Origin: Bacteroidia bacterium
GTDB lineage: Bacteria > Bacteroidota > Bacteroidia > J057 > JAIXKT01
Length of the DNA stretch: 45,336 nt
Assembly: GCA_026932145.1 (NCBI GenBank)
Contig: JAIXKT010000001.1
Location: forward strand, 153,843 to 199,178
Direction of reading: 5' to 3'
Shown here: piece after piece, positions 1,912 through 15,973 of the stretch
Layout: each line of letters opens with the position of its first letter
Position numbering within the stretch: the first letter of the stretch is position 1
Position numbers and translations under genes: made by a program
Notes under the pieces: generated by a model
What the model saw: only the letters and a program-made list of their open reading frames with translations
Database searches by the model: none
What the model was told of the DNA's origin: nothing

Positions 1912-4158
1912 TTAGTCATTTACCAAAATTTGACGGCCATTGAATAGTCGTACACCGTCCTTATTTTCTATAAATGAATATTGGTGTGGGCGTAGTGATG
2001 CCCATTTAAAGTGAAATTCAATCGGTTGTTTGTTGTAAATATAACTTATTTTCAGCGGATTACTGGCTTTGTATTGAATTGGAACTTCAAATAAAGCCCA
2101 GCCTTCTTGAATGTATTGCATATACGACGATATATTGTGCTGCTGTAAATGCTTTTGATTAAATTGTTTGGATTCGATATTTATCATAAAGCCGGTAACG
2201 GCACGTTTGGGAAGCTCCATCCAAAAGCTGAATATCCAATTGGTTGCTGTATCTTGGACTGTGGGTGTTCCTTCATAAAGAAAGTTATTTTGGGACTTAA
2301 TCGGTAACGATTCTCCGCGTATCAAAGAAGCATTTTTTTGTAAAAATGTGTATTTATCCGATAGCTTTCGTTGTTGGAGTTTATGTGCTTCTAAATAATG
2401 CTGCTTAAAATTCTTGATTTCCAATATTTTAACGCCAGTATCTGAGTAGATTGTGTTGGAATGTAAGGTTAAAAAATTCCAACCGGGTTCGTTATATGGA
2501 TTTATTTTTTGGGGAGTTACCATCCAAACCGATGCGCTATCCGGTAGGTTATTAAAGATAGTTGCCGGATAGGTTAGTTCCTGACCCGTTTGAAATTGTT
2601 CTATACATTGCCGTTGAGATGTTCGGCTAAGTTGGGCGGCAGTAGTAGGAACACCGGTACGTAAAGACAGCATCAAGGTTTGTACTGCAATCGGTAGGTT
2701 TATTTCGCGCCCAATCCATTCACAACCTGCCTGTATTCCCGGTAACGGAACTATCAAAGTAGGGTATTTTTTGGAATTTGATAAATAATAATGAGCAAAA
2801 TCACGTTGCTTATCTGTTAAATCATATTTTATAATTGGCTGATAAACAGGAATAAAAATACTGGAACGAGCTTCTATAATGGGAATAAACCCAATAATAA
2901 CAAGAATTACCGACAAAATAGGTTGCTTTATATTTTTAGCAGATAACCAACGATAGGTTTCTATGGCAAAAAAGATATTAATTACCCAATAATAGACCCA
3001 CATAAAACGCGCAATGCTCCGAAACTGCTTTAATGGGCCTAAATAATCCATTAGGAAGTCAAGTCCGGGTATAATAAACGGAATACCGTGTGCAAATAGC
3101 CCTAAAACAAAGGCAGCTAAAAGCATTATCCTGAGTGCTTTAACGTTATCTGGAAGATTATTTAAAGCTGAAAACCACTTTTTTACTTGCAGTAAAAAAA
3201 TCCCACGAAAGATGAGTATTAAGGTAGCAAGAGATGCCGCTATTCCACAATAGCCAATGGTTTCAAAGTCGTCAATGGGTCGAATTTGGATCCCCAGCTT
3301 CTCTATAAGTTGGTGCAGAAAAGTATTAGGATGTAAGAAAAAACCTTCCCACAGGGCGCGATAAGCTAAAAAACCATAGGGATTTTCCGGCCTATCCGGT
3401 ACATTGGCCACTAACTTGGTCCAAAATAAAATTAACCCAAAAGGAACTATAACACCCAAAACTATCAAACGTACTGAATTTAAAATAGTTGCATTTCCAA
3501 ATAAAGTTCGAAACAGCGCGTAGATAACTAAAAACATAGCTTGAATAGCCAAGAAGTATAAATGAATCATACTTGTTAAAGTTATCCAGATAGTTAAAAC
3601 AAGTAAACGCGCCCAAGAGTTAGGTTTATCTTCAAACCTAAATAAAAACAGTAAAAAAACCGGTATCACAACCGAATATGCTAACGAATAATGAGCTATC
3701 AACCTGTTATTTTGAGGAGAAAGCAGTACTAAGGCTATGCTCCAAAGTATAATAAACAGACGTGGTAAATTAAATCGAGACAAAATTTTAACTAACGCAG
3801 CAGCAGCAGTACAAGCTGAAAAAATCAGCGCATAATGAAAAAAGAACAGCCCATAATTCGATATTGGAACACCTAAATATCGTAAAGTCCAGCAAAACAT
3901 GGCTAAAAGAGGCGTATTATCCGTAAAGACAATATGTTCAGAAAAAGGATAATTCATCCCCTTAAAAAGCAGGATATTTGGATCGTAGCTTATATGATAC
4001 AAAAAAGTATAGTAATTCTTTAGTGCATCTTCTTCATAATGATTAAGTTCTTTTTGTAATATCCCCGAATTAGGTGAAAAAACAATTTCCGGAAATAGGC
4101 AGGCAATAAGCCCAAAGGTTATCAAAAAAGTCCATAACCAATCATATTTCGGGTTCAT
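1912..4158 (-). CDS. Large multi-pass membrane protein, GT-C-like glycosyltransferase candidate
   Basis: The 748-residue protein has about 11 hydrophobic segments in residues 1-435 and then a soluble C-terminal region of about 310 residues, probably extracytoplasmic. After the first membrane segment comes an acidic loop with EEDALKNYY, then MNYPF and TDNTPL. This layout resembles GT-C glycosyltransferases, which use a loop Asp and a polyprenyl-phosphate-sugar donor. The start ATG overlaps the stop of an upstream GT2 gene (ATGA). That GT2 resembles polyprenyl-phosphate hexose synthases, so a donor-maker/transferase pair is a reasonable inference. The GT2 now carries an internal stop, which may also reduce coupled translation of this gene. 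No substrate can be named. Confidence 0.75.
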   Translation of the reverse strand: MNPKYDWLWTFLITFGLIACLFPEIVFSPNSGILQKELNHYEEDALKNYYTFLYHISYDPNILLFKGMNYPFSEHIVFTDNTPLLAMFCWTLRYLGVPISNYGLFFFHYALIFSACTAAAALVKILSRFNLPRLFIILWSIALVLLSPQNNRLIAHYSLAYSVVIPVFLLFLFRFEDKPNSWARLLVLTIWITLTSMIHLYFLAIQAMFLVIYALFRTLFGNATILNSVRLIVLGVIVPFGLILFWTKLVANVPDRPENPYGFLAYRALWEGFFLHPNTFLHQLIEKLGIQIRPIDDFETIGYCGIAASLATLILIFRGIFLLQVKKWFSALNNLPDNVKALRIMLLAAFVLGLFAHGIPFIIPGLDFLMDYLGPLKQFRSIARFMWVYYWVINIFFAIETYRWLSAKNIKQPILSVILVIIGFIPIIEARSSIFIPVYQPIIKYDLTDKQRDFAHYYLSNSKKYPTLIVPLPGIQAGCEWIGREINLPIAVQTLMLSLRTGVPTTAAQLSRTSQRQCIEQFQTGQELTYPATIFNNLPDSASVWMVTPQKINPYNEPGWNFLTLHSNTIYSDTGVKILEIKNFKQHYLEAHKLQQRKLSDKYTFLQKNASLIRGESLPIKSQNNFLYEGTPTVQDTATNWIFSFWMELPKRAVTGFMINIESKQFNQKHLQQHNISSYMQYIQEGWALFEVPIQYKASNPLKISYIYNKQPIEFHFKWASLRPHQYSFIENKDGVRLFNGRQILVND

Positions 4159-4856
4159 ATTCCCACTAAAATTCGCATAAAATTTTGAAACTCCTTCAAA
4201 ATCACACCAATAGATATTGAAGTAAACTGAACATCCGGCCTTAAAAATACCTCTACTGGCTTTACCGAAATATCTTTACGTTTCAGTGCTAACTTAATGA
4301 ATTCAAAATCAAATAGAAATTGATTTGTTTTGGTTTTTAGAAAGATTTCTTTGCCTGTATTGTCAAAGCCTTTGAGGCCACATTGGGTATCGGTAATAGA
4401 AATTCCGGCTATTTTTAGTATTGCCCGAAATAGTTTAGAAAGTATTTTTCGTGGAAGCGGCGTAGCTTGGTAGTAAACATTTCCTCGAAAACCTACGGCT
4501 ACATTTGCGCCTTGCTATAAAGTTTCCAAAATAGCTGCTATACTGGCAGTTGTATAGGGAAAGTCAATATCTGTAATAATATAATAATCAGACGTAACTG
4601 CTGAAACTCCCTTTCTAAGTGCATAACCTTTACCTTGATTTTCCGGATAACCTATAAATCGAAAATTGGAATTTTCTTTTTGCAAGTATTCTAAGGTGTT
4701 TTTTAAATCATTATCCTGCGAACCGTCATCTACTACTAAGATAGAAAGCTGAATATCCGAAAACTTTTGTAACACTAATTGATTATTCTGCTTAAATATT
4801 TCATTCCAGCTATTCGGTGGCTTGTAGCACGGCAAGATAATTGTTAATGTTTGCAT
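4155..4856 (-). pseudogene. GT2 glycosyltransferase (polyprenyl-phosphate hexose synthase-like) with in-frame amber stop
   Basis: The frame from the ATG at 4856 reads a GT2 N-terminal half (TIILPCYKP, VVDDGSQD, YPENQGKGYALRKG, the DxD-type ITDIDFP). It stops at TAG (4517-4515) after 113 residues. The same frame then continues with QGANVAVGFRG, ITDTQCGLKGF and FDFEFIKLAL, all hallmarks of dolichyl-phosphate-mannose-synthase-like enzymes, to a TGA at 4155-4157. That TGA overlaps the ATG of the next gene. Without the TAG the product would be 233 residues, a complete enzyme. One C-to-T change (CAG to TAG) would explain it. TAG is used as an ordinary stop elsewhere in the window, so recoding is unlikely. 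The cause is either a real recent nonsense mutation or a sequence error. Confidence 0.85.
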
Positions 4857-4883: not shown

Positions 4884-4891
4884 CAAAGGTA
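4884..4891 (-). promoter_or_regulatory. Bacteroidota -7 promoter box for the GT2/GT-C pair
   Basis: On the minus strand TACCTTTG (4891 to 4884) matches TAnnTTTG and lies 27 nt upstream of the GT2 ATG. It abuts the end of the long hairpin at 4891-4942, so this promoter restarts transcription directly after a terminator. Confidence 0.5.
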
Positions 4892-4942
4892 CAAAAACCA
4901 GAATGAGTTTACTTGGCTGAGTAAACTCATTCTGGTTTTTGT
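4891..4942 (-). terminator. Perfect 23-bp inverted repeat, terminator after the lipoprotein gene
   Basis: Arms 4891-4913 and 4920-4942 are exact reverse complements around a 6-nt loop. On the minus strand the stem ends in GGTTTTTGT, giving a T-rich tail, and it begins 17 nt after the lipoprotein stop. It is a likely intrinsic terminator, unusually long and perfect. Confidence 0.75.
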
Positions 4943-4958
4943 ATTTTAAATTACGTGC

Positions 4959-5450
4959 TTATTTCTGCATCGTAACGGTGTAAGTACGCTTTGTGGGAGG
5001 AGTTGTACTGCTATCATCCTCTACATAGGAAGTTTTAAAGGTCGTTCCGTCTATGGTAATAACGGTATAGTTCTTCTTCTTACCATCTTTATCAGTTAAT
5101 TCGATAATAGATTCGTTAGTTGTAAATTTCCAATCTTCGTCATAGCTCTGTGGGTCAGTAGCAGTACATTTGGACGCTCCTTCATCAGTAGTTACTTTAC
5201 CGGTAGTCTTGAACGTAATTTTATCGTCTTTGCTGCAAGCTGGAATATACGAGAATAAATCCGTTACCGGAGTACCAGTTCCCATATTTACACCGGGATT
5301 AGCGGTCAATGCTTTCATTGTATAGGTTTTGTTGCATAACAGTTCTGTTTTAGAAGCAGAAGGAGCCGGTGTATCCTCTTTTTTCTTACAAGAAACTGAA
5401 ATTACCACGAGGCCTAAGCCAATCACGAAAAGATTCTTAATGTTTTTCAT
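4959..5450 (-). CDS. Small lipoprotein, lipocalin-like candidate
   Basis: A 163-residue exported lipoprotein. The N-terminus KNIKNLFVIGLGLVVISVSC is a classic lipoprotein signal with the lipidated Cys at 21, followed by KKKEDTPAPS, a low-complexity linker. The mature part is rich in Thr, Asp and Lys with alternating strands, including a CNKTYTMKAL start and a WKFTTNESIIELTDKDGKKKNYTV segment. This resembles the small lipocalin-like lipoproteins common in Bacteroidota, but no specific function can be given. It has its own promoter upstream and a strong terminator downstream, so it is a single-gene unit. Two further cysteines (about 71 and 93) could form a disulfide. Confidence 0.8.
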   Translation of the reverse strand: MKNIKNLFVIGLGLVVISVSCKKKEDTPAPSASKTELLCNKTYTMKALTANPGVNMGTGTPVTDLFSYIPACSKDDKITFKTTGKVTTDEGASKCTATDPQSYDEDWKFTTNESIIELTDKDGKKKNYTVITIDGTTFKTSYVEDDSSTTPPTKRTYTVTMQK

Positions 5451-5605: not shown

Positions 5606-6292
5606 CTATAGCATATTTAGCTGAGAGATTAAGTTATCTCTGTATGATTTTCCAATTGGGATTAGCTTTTGGTCCATCACAATCATGTCTTCTTCTATAA
5701 ATTTGATTTTATCAAGTCTAACGATGTATGAGCGATGAACTCTGGTAAACTCCGCCGGCAAGCGTTCTTCCATATACTTCATGGTGTTGAGGACGGTAAC
5801 TTTTTCATTGCTGCATTGTATTCTGACGTAATCTGCCAATGCTTCGATATAGAGAATATCTTTGAGGTTGATTTTTTGGAGTTTTCGCTCGGTTCTGACG
5901 AATATTTCGGTTTCTTGTTCTGGATGAGTAAGTCGGTTTTGTTCCCAAATTTCTTTGGCCTTTGTAACCGCTTTTAAGAATCTATCAAAGGCGATTGGTT
6001 TCAGTAGATAATCTAAGATATTTAGTTCATAACCTTCTATGGCATAATCCGGGTAGGCAGTGGTAATAATCACCGGAATCTCAAAAGAACGCATTTTTAG
6101 AAAGTTTATCCCGGTAATTTCCGGCATATTTATATCTAAAAACAGCACATCAATCGGCTCTGTATCCAGAATTTCGATTGCTTCTAAAACATTTCCACAA
6201 CTTCTATATTTTTTCAGGAACGGAATCTTCTCTACATATTGCTCTATCACAGACCGTGCAAGGGGTTCATCATCTACAATCAAACAATTCAT
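5606..6292 (-). CDS. LytTR-family response regulator
   Basis: A 228-residue cytoplasmic DNA-binding regulator. Residues 1-118 are a receiver: acidic pair D7/D8, phosphoacceptor D53 in VLFLDINMP, a Thr at about 77-78 and K98 in LLKP. Residues 125-228 are a LytTR domain (IFVRTERKLQKINLKDILYIEAL, then TRVHRSYIV), which binds direct-repeat sites. It is preceded by a histidine kinase gene ending 96 nt upstream on the same strand, so the two probably form one operon and one two-component system. LytTR regulators more often pair with LytS-type kinases; here the partner has a HisKA-type H-box. The target genes are not evident. The stop codon is TAG. Confidence 0.93.
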   Translation of the reverse strand: MNCLIVDDEPLARSVIEQYVEKIPFLKKYRSCGNVLEAIEILDTEPIDVLFLDINMPEITGINFLKMRSFEIPVIITTAYPDYAIEGYELNILDYLLKPIAFDRFLKAVTKAKEIWEQNRLTHPEQETEIFVRTERKLQKINLKDILYIEALADYVRIQCSNEKVTVLNTMKYMEERLPAEFTRVHRSYIVRLDKIKFIEEDMIVMDQKLIPIGKSYRDNLISQLNML

Positions 6293-11287: not shown

Positions 11288-13258
11288 ATGTATCAACGAA
11301 TTGTCTATTTATTACTATTTGGAATGCTTTTTTCCAGTATAGGAGGGTTTGCCCAGCTAAAAAAAGGTAACAAATTATATAATGCTAATAAATTTTCTTT
11401 AGCAATAGCTGCGTACCAAAAAGAGTTAGAAAAAGGCCAAAATCAAGAGGCTATGGAAAAAATCGCCGATTGCTACCGAAGAATAGGCCAGATTGCCCAA
11501 GCCGAAAAATGGTATCAAAAAATCACCAGCAAAAAAGTAGCTCCTGAGCAATACCTTCGCTATGGCCAGACCCTGAAAATGGCCGGAAAATATGAAGAAG
11601 CCAAAATCCAATTTGAAAAATTTGCCAAAGAAGCTTCATCTGACCCCAGAGGCCAGCAATATATTAAAAGCTGTGATTTTGCCCAGAAAACACTCTCTGA
11701 AACCAATAGCTACAATGCAGATAAAGTAGAAAAAATCAACTCTAATATGTCTGATATTTGTCCTGTTCCTTACAAAAACGGATTTATCTTTGCTTCAAAT
11801 CGCTACCGTGTAGATCTCAAAAAGCAAAAAACGGATAATTTTTCAGGGTTTCCATATTTTGACTTATACTTTTGCGAATTTTCCCAAGCCGATAAAACAT
11901 TCAAAACTCCCGGTGCATTGGGTAATACAATCAACTTACCGTTGCATGAAGGCCCCGCAACAGTAACGGCAGACGGAAAAAAACTATTTTTTGGCCGCAC
12001 TATTGAGAAAAAAGGAAACCCAGATTTAGGTATCCGCAACACCACTTCCATGAAAATTGTTACCGCCGTTTGGGATGATGCCCAAAAGACTTGGGGTAGC
12101 TTTGCCGATTTTCCCTATAATAATCCCAATTATTTTGTAGGGCACCCCGCTGTCAGCAAAGATGGTAACGAAATTCTATTCGTTTCCGATATGCCCGGCG
12201 GTAGTGGTAATATGGACTTGTGGATGTGCCGCAAAGAAGGGAATAGCTGGGGAAAGCCAGTAAACTTAGGCAAAGAAGTTAACACCCCCGGAAACGAAGT
12301 TTTTCCAAGTATTCATACAGATGGAACACTTTATTTTTCATCTGATTACCACCCGGGAATGGGCGGCTTAGACGTATTTTCAGCTACCAAAAATGGAGCT
12401 ACCTACGGCAGCGTCCAAAATCTCAAAATGTATATCAACTCATCTATGGATGATTTCGGCTTTTATCTCAGCGAAAATAAAGATTGGGGTTTCGTTTCTT
12501 CTAACAGAAAAGGTGGAAAAGGCCAAGACGATATTTATCTGATAACAAAATTCACCCCCAAACCACCAGTTGAAGATACCACTGCCAAAAAACCAGAAGT
12601 TGCAGCCTCTAATACCGAAAAAACACAAGTTAATGTTATTGCCGTAGAAAAAACTAAAAACAAATCCCTCGATAGCGTAGTTGTTCAGATTTTCAACGAA
12701 AAAGAAGTTGTCAGAAAATCTATGACAGACCCAAGCGGTAAGTTTTTAGTAGAACTCGAAAAAAACTATACCTACACTACTCTCGCTCGGAGAAAAGGCT
12801 ACCTAAGTAAGCGCGGCAAAATCATACTCGGAAATGAAGATGCAATTGATTTTAAAATTGTTATGGAAAAAGTCGAAGTGGGTAAAAAATCTGACGACCT
12901 CCCCAACATCTATTTTGACTTTAACAGTTCAAGTGTTCGTGAACAAGATAAACCTATTTTAGACAAAATCATTCAAGTGTTACATGATAACCCTGCGCTA
13001 ATTGTAGAATTAGCTTCCTATGCAGACCCAGTCGGTAGTGATGTTTCTAACCTGATTCTGTCTAGAAAACGCTCAACGGAAGCTGCAAACTATCTAACAA
13101 ACAAAGGATTAGAAAAGAATAGGATTATCATTATGGGCTATGGAGAGAAAAACTTAATTGTTGTGAATGCAAAAAATAACGAAGAAAACCAGCCCAATCG
13201 TAGAACGGAGTTTATCATCCGCAAATACAATCCTAAGCAAGATAAAATGAACGATTAG
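11288..13258 (+). CDS. PorE-like outer-membrane-associated TPR/beta-propeller/OmpA protein
   Basis: A 656-residue exported protein. Residues 1-22 are a signal peptide ending FAQ; there is no lipobox Cys. Residues 24-120 are TPR-like helices (AIAAYQKELEKGQ, AEKWYQKI, YEEAKIQFEKF). Residues 150-425 contain PD40/WD40-like strands (GFIFASNRYR, GGSGNMDLW, LYFSSDYHPGMGGLDVF). Residues 455-535 are a carboxypeptidase regulatory-like domain, and 540-650 an OmpA domain that binds peptidoglycan, with the conserved D and R in GSDVSNLILSRKRS. This exact domain order matches PorE of the type IX secretion system, which anchors the machine to peptidoglycan. Similar proteins with other roles exist, so PorE is probable, not certain. 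The stop is TAG. Confidence 0.85.
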   Translation: MYQRIVYLLLFGMLFSSIGGFAQLKKGNKLYNANKFSLAIAAYQKELEKGQNQEAMEKIADCYRRIGQIAQAEKWYQKITSKKVAPEQYLRYGQTLKMAGKYEEAKIQFEKFAKEASSDPRGQQYIKSCDFAQKTLSETNSYNADKVEKINSNMSDICPVPYKNGFIFASNRYRVDLKKQKTDNFSGFPYFDLYFCEFSQADKTFKTPGALGNTINLPLHEGPATVTADGKKLFFGRTIEKKGNPDLGIRNTTSMKIVTAVWDDAQKTWGSFADFPYNNPNYFVGHPAVSKDGNEILFVSDMPGGSGNMDLWMCRKEGNSWGKPVNLGKEVNTPGNEVFPSIHTDGTLYFSSDYHPGMGGLDVFSATKNGATYGSVQNLKMYINSSMDDFGFYLSENKDWGFVSSNRKGGKGQDDIYLITKFTPKPPVEDTTAKKPEVAASNTEKTQVNVIAVEKTKNKSLDSVVVQIFNEKEVVRKSMTDPSGKFLVELEKNYTYTTLARRKGYLSKRGKIILGNEDAIDFKIVMEKVEVGKKSDDLPNIYFDFNSSSVREQDKPILDKIIQVLHDNPALIVELASYADPVGSDVSNLILSRKRSTEAANYLTNKGLEKNRIIIMGYGEKNLIVVNAKNNEENQPNRRTEFIIRKYNPKQDKMND

Positions 13259-14620: not shown

Positions 14621-15973
14621 ATGAGAATCCATTTAATTGCAATTGGTGGGGCAGTTATGCACAATTTAGCGTTAGAGCTATTGGAATTAGGGCATATCGT
14701 TACCGGTTCTGACGACGAAATATGGGAACCCTCCCGCAGCAGGTTAGCACAGGCCGGACTACTACCCGAAAATACCGGATGGTTTCCAGAAAAAATAACA
14801 CAAAATATAGATTTGATAATCGTGGGAATGCACGCTAAAGCAGATAACCCAGAATTATCAAAAGCTAAAGAGCTAAAAATAAACACGTTATCATTTCCGG
14901 AGTTTATTTTTCAGCACGCTAAACACAAACAAAGAATCGTAATAGCCGGCAGTCATGGAAAAACGACTACAACTTCCATTATTTTACATATTTTAAAGGA
15001 AAATAACATCGAAGTTGATTTCTTGGTAGGCTCCATTCTACCTGGGTTCAAAAATATGGTTCATTTGACGGAACATTCATCGGTGTTAATAGCCGAGGGC
15101 GATGAATATTTAGCTTCTCCAATGCTTCCTATTCCTAAATTTTTGGTCTATCAACCCCACATGGTTGTTATCACCGGAATATCTTGGGATCATATCAATG
15201 TTTTTCAAACGGAAGAAATTTATTATCAGCAGTTTGAAAAACTGGTTCAGCAGTTACCCAAAGCTGGAACCGTAATCTATAATGCTGAGGATGCACAGGT
15301 GAGTTCATTGGTTCAAAAATATACAAAACCGGATATTCATTATGCTGTTCCCTATGAAACAATTTCTTTTAAGTATAAAAATACCCATACAGAATATCGG
15401 TTAGCTGGTGAAAAGGGAACAACACAACTATTTGGGAATCATAATTTTGCGAATATTTCTGCTGCATGGCAAGTTTGCCGTTTATTAGGGCTTTCTCCCC
15501 ATCAGTTTATCCAAGCTATGGTCTCTTTTCAAGGTCCAGACAAACGGATGCAACTTATCACTTCAGAGAAGAACGGACTGTTTATTCAAGATTTTGCCCA
15601 TGCTCCATCCAAAGTAAATGCAACGGTAGATGCTGTTTTGTCAAAATATGATAAAAAAGAAGTGATTGCTTGCTTAGAATTACATACTTTTAGCAGTTTA
15701 AATTCTTCATTTTTAAAACGTTATGCAGGTTCACTAAGTAAAGCGGCTAAAAAATTTGTGTTTATTAGCGACCACGCTCTTAAACTAAAAAAACTTCCTG
15801 CGATAGCGGATTCCGTTATTCAGGAGGGTTTTCAAGATTTAAGTATTATTGTTCTGCGAAACAAGAGAACATTAACAGAGGCACTTAAGCCGCTTTTAAA
15901 CTCCAAAACAGTATTGCTGCTTATGTCCTCTGGAAGTTTTGACGGACTTAAAATAAACGAGCTAACTAATTAG
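14621..15973 (+). CDS. mpl: UDP-N-acetylmuramate:L-alanyl-gamma-D-glutamyl-meso-diaminopimelate ligase (Mpl)
   Basis: Mpl attaches recovered murein tripeptide directly to UDP-MurNAc, recycling peptidoglycan. The 450-residue Mur ligase has the N-terminal UDP-binding start HLIAIGGAVMHNLALELLELGH with GSDDEIWEPSRS, the ATP P-loop GSHGKTTTTS, and EGDEYLASP, which is typical of Mpl rather than MurC. The middle domain has GNHNFANISAAW and the C-terminal domain DFAHAPSKVNATVDAV. Length matches the family. It stands alone, with a short leader and a bidirectional hairpin downstream. The stop is TAG. Confidence 0.95.
   Translation: MRIHLIAIGGAVMHNLALELLELGHIVTGSDDEIWEPSRSRLAQAGLLPENTGWFPEKITQNIDLIIVGMHAKADNPELSKAKELKINTLSFPEFIFQHAKHKQRIVIAGSHGKTTTTSIILHILKENNIEVDFLVGSILPGFKNMVHLTEHSSVLIAEGDEYLASPMLPIPKFLVYQPHMVVITGISWDHINVFQTEEIYYQQFEKLVQQLPKAGTVIYNAEDAQVSSLVQKYTKPDIHYAVPYETISFKYKNTHTEYRLAGEKGTTQLFGNHNFANISAAWQVCRLLGLSPHQFIQAMVSFQGPDKRMQLITSEKNGLFIQDFAHAPSKVNATVDAVLSKYDKKEVIACLELHTFSSLNSSFLKRYAGSLSKAAKKFVFISDHALKLKKLPAIADSVIQEGFQDLSIIVLRNKRTLTEALKPLLNSKTVLLLMSSGSFDGLKINELTN

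Follow-up and report, generated by a model that had tools for sequence, protein, structure and literature searches.

How should a gene be read whose frame is complete and conserved from one end to the other, except for a single stop codon in its middle? This question is raised by a gene of glycosyltransferase family 2 (GT2) in the stretch of 45,336 nucleotides analysed here (hereafter, the window). The gene occupies positions 4155-4856 and is read on the minus strand, from 4856 to 4155; it comprises 233 codons and a TGA, in one frame that is broken only by an in-frame TAG at codon 114 (4515-4517, minus strand), in the context TTA TAG CAA. The upstream half (codons 1-113; 4518-4856, minus strand) is the nucleotide-binding half, with the DDGS and DID motifs, and was delimited from the translation, the PF00535 match, the alignment of homologues, and a search with this half by itself. 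The downstream half (codons 115-233 and the TGA; 4155-4514, minus strand) carries the motifs GxR, YY, R136, S140, DTQCGLKGF, and LFDFE. The initial annotation, which gave no strand, had described a single in-frame TAG, an ATGA coupling to the neighbouring gene, and a locus that is otherwise undamaged. Translation of the minus strand bears out all of this: the TAG is read at 4517-4515, the terminal TGA of GT2 (4157-4155) overlaps the ATG of its partner (4158-4156) to form ATGA, and the rest of the GT2 frame is complete and conserved. On either side of the stop, codon statistics also prefer this frame to the alternatives, with the exception of one weakly positive reverse-strand frame.

The assignment to the GT2 family was made on the read-through protein, in which PF00535 covers residues 6-147 (E 5.7e-16; 59.3 bits versus a gathering cut-off of 23.3). 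The nearest solved structures are those of ArnC and dolichyl-phosphate mannose (DPM) synthase (PDB 5mlz, 9hwj; phmmer E about 4e-9). The gene had earlier been called “polyprenyl-phosphate hexose synthase-like”, and a function of this kind (DPM1/GtrB/ArnC/PpgS-like) is plausible on the strength of these relatives, although every curated NCBIfam equivalog falls far below its cut-off (e.g., PRK10714, 39 versus 529; PpgS, 29 versus 370). Because of these low scores, the exact substrate is unproven, and we describe the protein as DPM1/ArnC-like by sequence and file it only as GT2. It shares with the DPM1/ArnC type the GT2 domain, a DxD motif, and a similar domain extent, whereas the chains of that type are 322-374 aa long and the window GT2 has 233 aa. 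The motifs TDxDFPY and DTQCGLKGF also set it apart, as a separate subfamily that occurs throughout this class of Bacteroidota.

GT2 is the first gene of a two-gene unit, and the second, at 1912-4158 on the minus strand, encodes a polytopic membrane protein of 748 aa. About 10 hydrophobic segments lie in its first 425 residues, and its conserved residues are D44, K47, N48, Y49, and D80 (D44-x-x-K47-N48-Y49). D44 and D80, between hydrophobic segments 1 and 2, are conserved in at least nine of 10 sequences. The name “GT-C partner” given in the initial annotation is not supported by the sequence, which matches nothing in Pfam up to an E value of 5 and nothing in PDB up to an E value of 1; from its topology and these acidic residues, the protein may be GT-C-like. 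In many relatives, GT2 adjoins the membrane partner, which lies downstream in some genomes (e.g., G001, G002, G029, and G043) and upstream in others (G007, G012, G015, and G016). In other words, a protein family with no Pfam or PDB match accompanies this GT2 in numerous genomes of the class. On the other side of GT2, a perfect 24-bp hairpin (4890-4943; -34.4 kcal/mol, z -12) sits between a lipocalin-like gene (4959-5450, minus strand) and the GT2 start, and is probably the terminator of that upstream gene. Directly at its foot, about 27 bases upstream from the GT2 start, is a candidate Bacteroidota -7 promoter element, TACCTTTG (4884-4891, minus strand), a weak indication given how common the motif is, at about one occurrence per kb on each strand.

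When residues 1-113 and 115-233 were searched separately, each half matched 35 of 35 homologues and none of the shuffled decoys. With Z set to 1e6, the weakest E values were 4e-10 (upstream half) and 2e-18 (downstream half). The interrupted frame is therefore more than a chance arrangement. Relatives were sought in the genus and the family, of which this was the only genome covered, and in the order (22 genomes), a class sample (395 genomes), and the genome_contigs collection, with a best identity of 45%. Among named genomes, the best relative came from a Saprospiraceae MAG, which suggests Bacteroidota. Among the matches listed from the order and class searches, all related full-length genes lack the internal stop, and the frame in the window is thus interrupted relative to its intact homologues, by one TAG here and none in those listed. 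No homologue has a stop at codon 114, even the nearest of them being only about 45% identical. The downstream half is conserved at least as well as the upstream half (34-55% versus 27-42% identity in the alignment of 35 homologues). At columns that are at least 90% conserved, GT2 deviates at none of 18 upstream and at one of 24 downstream, and intact homologues deviate to a similar extent. Because these deviations are normal in number and the downstream half is conserved, nothing in the sequence suggests prolonged decay or that the second half has long been free of selection. The column of codon 114 itself is highly variable in the homologues (E, L, A, Q, K, C, T, S, V, R, D, H, and M), and in a low-confidence single-sequence fold (pLDDT 48), a helix ends at this residue. 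With a column so variable, the ancestral residue or codon cannot be inferred, and the earlier proposal that a single C-to-T change explains the TAG stands as one possibility and is unsupported as the sole explanation.

A conserved frame flanking the TAG on both sides would speak for an organism that reads UAG as an amino acid, a possibility that we considered. The gene for release factor 1 (RF1), prfA, is present (501 bits, over its cut-off). The genome has 43 tRNAs covering all 20 amino acids, and none of the 43 has a CTA anticodon (150 of 221 first-look candidates were scored). In a genome sample, TAG ends 32 of 234 long frames (at least 250 codons), and in the window it is confirmed as the terminator at 5606-5608 (minus strand), 13256-13258 (plus strand), and 15971-15973 (plus strand). 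We also surveyed stretches totalling 465 kb of the genome for a second comparable interruption, flanked on each side by a coding-like frame and equally far from a restart, and found none; the apparently similar cases have alternative starts within 2-36 codons. The view that TAG is not generally reassigned is upheld by the terminators, RF1, the tRNA set, and the genome sample, and a reassigned code, which we rejected on these grounds and on the lack of a further such case in the 465 kb surveyed, is extremely improbable. The interrupted GT2 gene gives no reason to suppose a changed code. It should be mentioned that the tRNA set includes two Ser(gct)-Pro(tgg)-Arg(tct) clusters (L098, G000 C40; L103, G000 C19), one of them near a contig end; this doubling reflects either a duplication or some of the 3% contamination estimated for the assembly.

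The explanation that we consider probable is that GT2 carries a very recent nonsense mutation, which is either fixed in the strain or still polymorphic in the population that was sampled. The locus resembles recently nonsense-mutated bacterial genes and pseudogenes in its lone stop, its conserved and otherwise undamaged frame, and its lack of a nearby restart codon, and we found nothing that sets it apart from them; its recency is judged from the retained conservation only. Possible, and clearly less probable, is a single-base error in the consensus of an assembly that is of metagenome type or a draft, with the gene intact in the living cell. The genome is indeed a 3.48-Mb draft in 66 contigs with 3% estimated contamination, and the window forms the final 45 kb of its contig 1; GT2 is otherwise perfect, its stop falls in a tolerant, hypervariable column, and its intact downstream half fits an error (or functional read-through) as well as it fits a mutation. 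The absence of a second case from the 465 kb cuts both ways, as it is expected of a rare error and at the same time means that the assembly as a whole is not poor. In a well-covered consensus, single-base substitution errors are uncommon, and a real nonsense mutation would look identical. A search of the literature for nonsense rates specific to metagenome-assembled genomes found nothing useful, and the weights given to mutation and to consensus error are our judgement and were not computed. The initial annotation had listed a very recent inactivation, a rare recoding case, and a sequencing error; of these, recent inactivation and assembly error are upheld as the leading readings.

The conserved downstream half would also be expected if the gene were leaky but functional, with a near-cognate tRNA (Gln, Tyr, or Lys) reading UAG at a low rate, so that the output would be lowered and not abolished. 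Some leakage at UAG probably occurs in every bacterium. In E. coli, UAG can be decoded as Gln, Tyr, or Lys (PMC11126739), and a single tRNA-Gln(TTG) is present in this genome, although the 5-bp anticodon stem of that tRNA looks ordinary by eye. Measured rates are low, however: determinations in two Pseudomonas species put UAG read-through at about 0.01% and about 1 in 20,000 (PMC9481147), and TAG is a less leaky stop than TGA in E. coli (PMC11126739). Conserved in-frame stops with dN/dS below 1 have been reported in bacterial genes (Belinky et al. 2021, PMC7918605), and the TAG in a Paenibacillus sulfotransferase family from that study is like the present one in lying mid-frame with apparent constraint on both sides. 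In the Paenibacillus case, however, the stop is common to several species and dN/dS is measurable, whereas the GT2 stop is kept in no homologue. In other words, the stop itself is not conserved at its position among relatives, as it would be under programmed read-through, the nearest being about 45% identical, and a recent mutation accounts for the conservation of the frame equally well. Functional read-through of the GT2 TAG is not supported, and we regard a leaky gene as unlikely; still more doubtful is a lineage-specific regulatory stop with low, condition-dependent read-through, which would allow little of the enzyme and of its coupled partner to be made. The conservation of both halves might finally point to a split enzyme, in which the halves are translated separately and then assemble. 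There is, however, no in-frame ATG, GTG, or TTG for 103 codons past the stop, and all homologues are single chains; with a second half that lacks a usable start, we rejected this arrangement, to which we attach almost no probability.

If the stop is a real and recent nonsense mutation, its consequences can be sketched as follows. With RF1 present, ribosomes would stop at UAG and release a fragment of 113 residues, which would keep the nucleotide-binding strands, DDGS, and DxD, and would be without the conserved second half. The motifs GxR, YY, R136, S140, DTQCGLKGF, and LFDFE, conserved in nearly all homologues, are missing from the fragment, and because that half is missing, the fragment is most likely inactive. 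Since the next in-frame ATG, GTG, or TTG after the TAG is at codon 218, 104 codons on, with no restart site within 103 codons, it is unlikely that the second half would be made separately. Ribosomes would also fail to reach the ATGA junction, and synthesis of the partner, whose start lies 357 bases further on, would be lowered through the loss of translational coupling. Given this added loss of coupling, the partner may suffer from more than the lack of its donor. The other GT2 matches in the genome are only 26-27% identical; a close paralogue is therefore absent, with no replacement for GT2, and little or nothing would remain of the glycan step in which the pair acts.

The finding most likely represents an ordinary recent loss of function, or else an assembly error of one base, rather than a novel reading of the code. 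Automated annotation would give a fragment of 113 aa here and miss a conserved Bacteroidota pair of a GT2 and a membrane protein, although this matters little beyond annotation. If the stop is real and segregating, the locus would illustrate, on a small scale, how a glycan step was recently lost and an ATGA-linked gene pair uncoupled.
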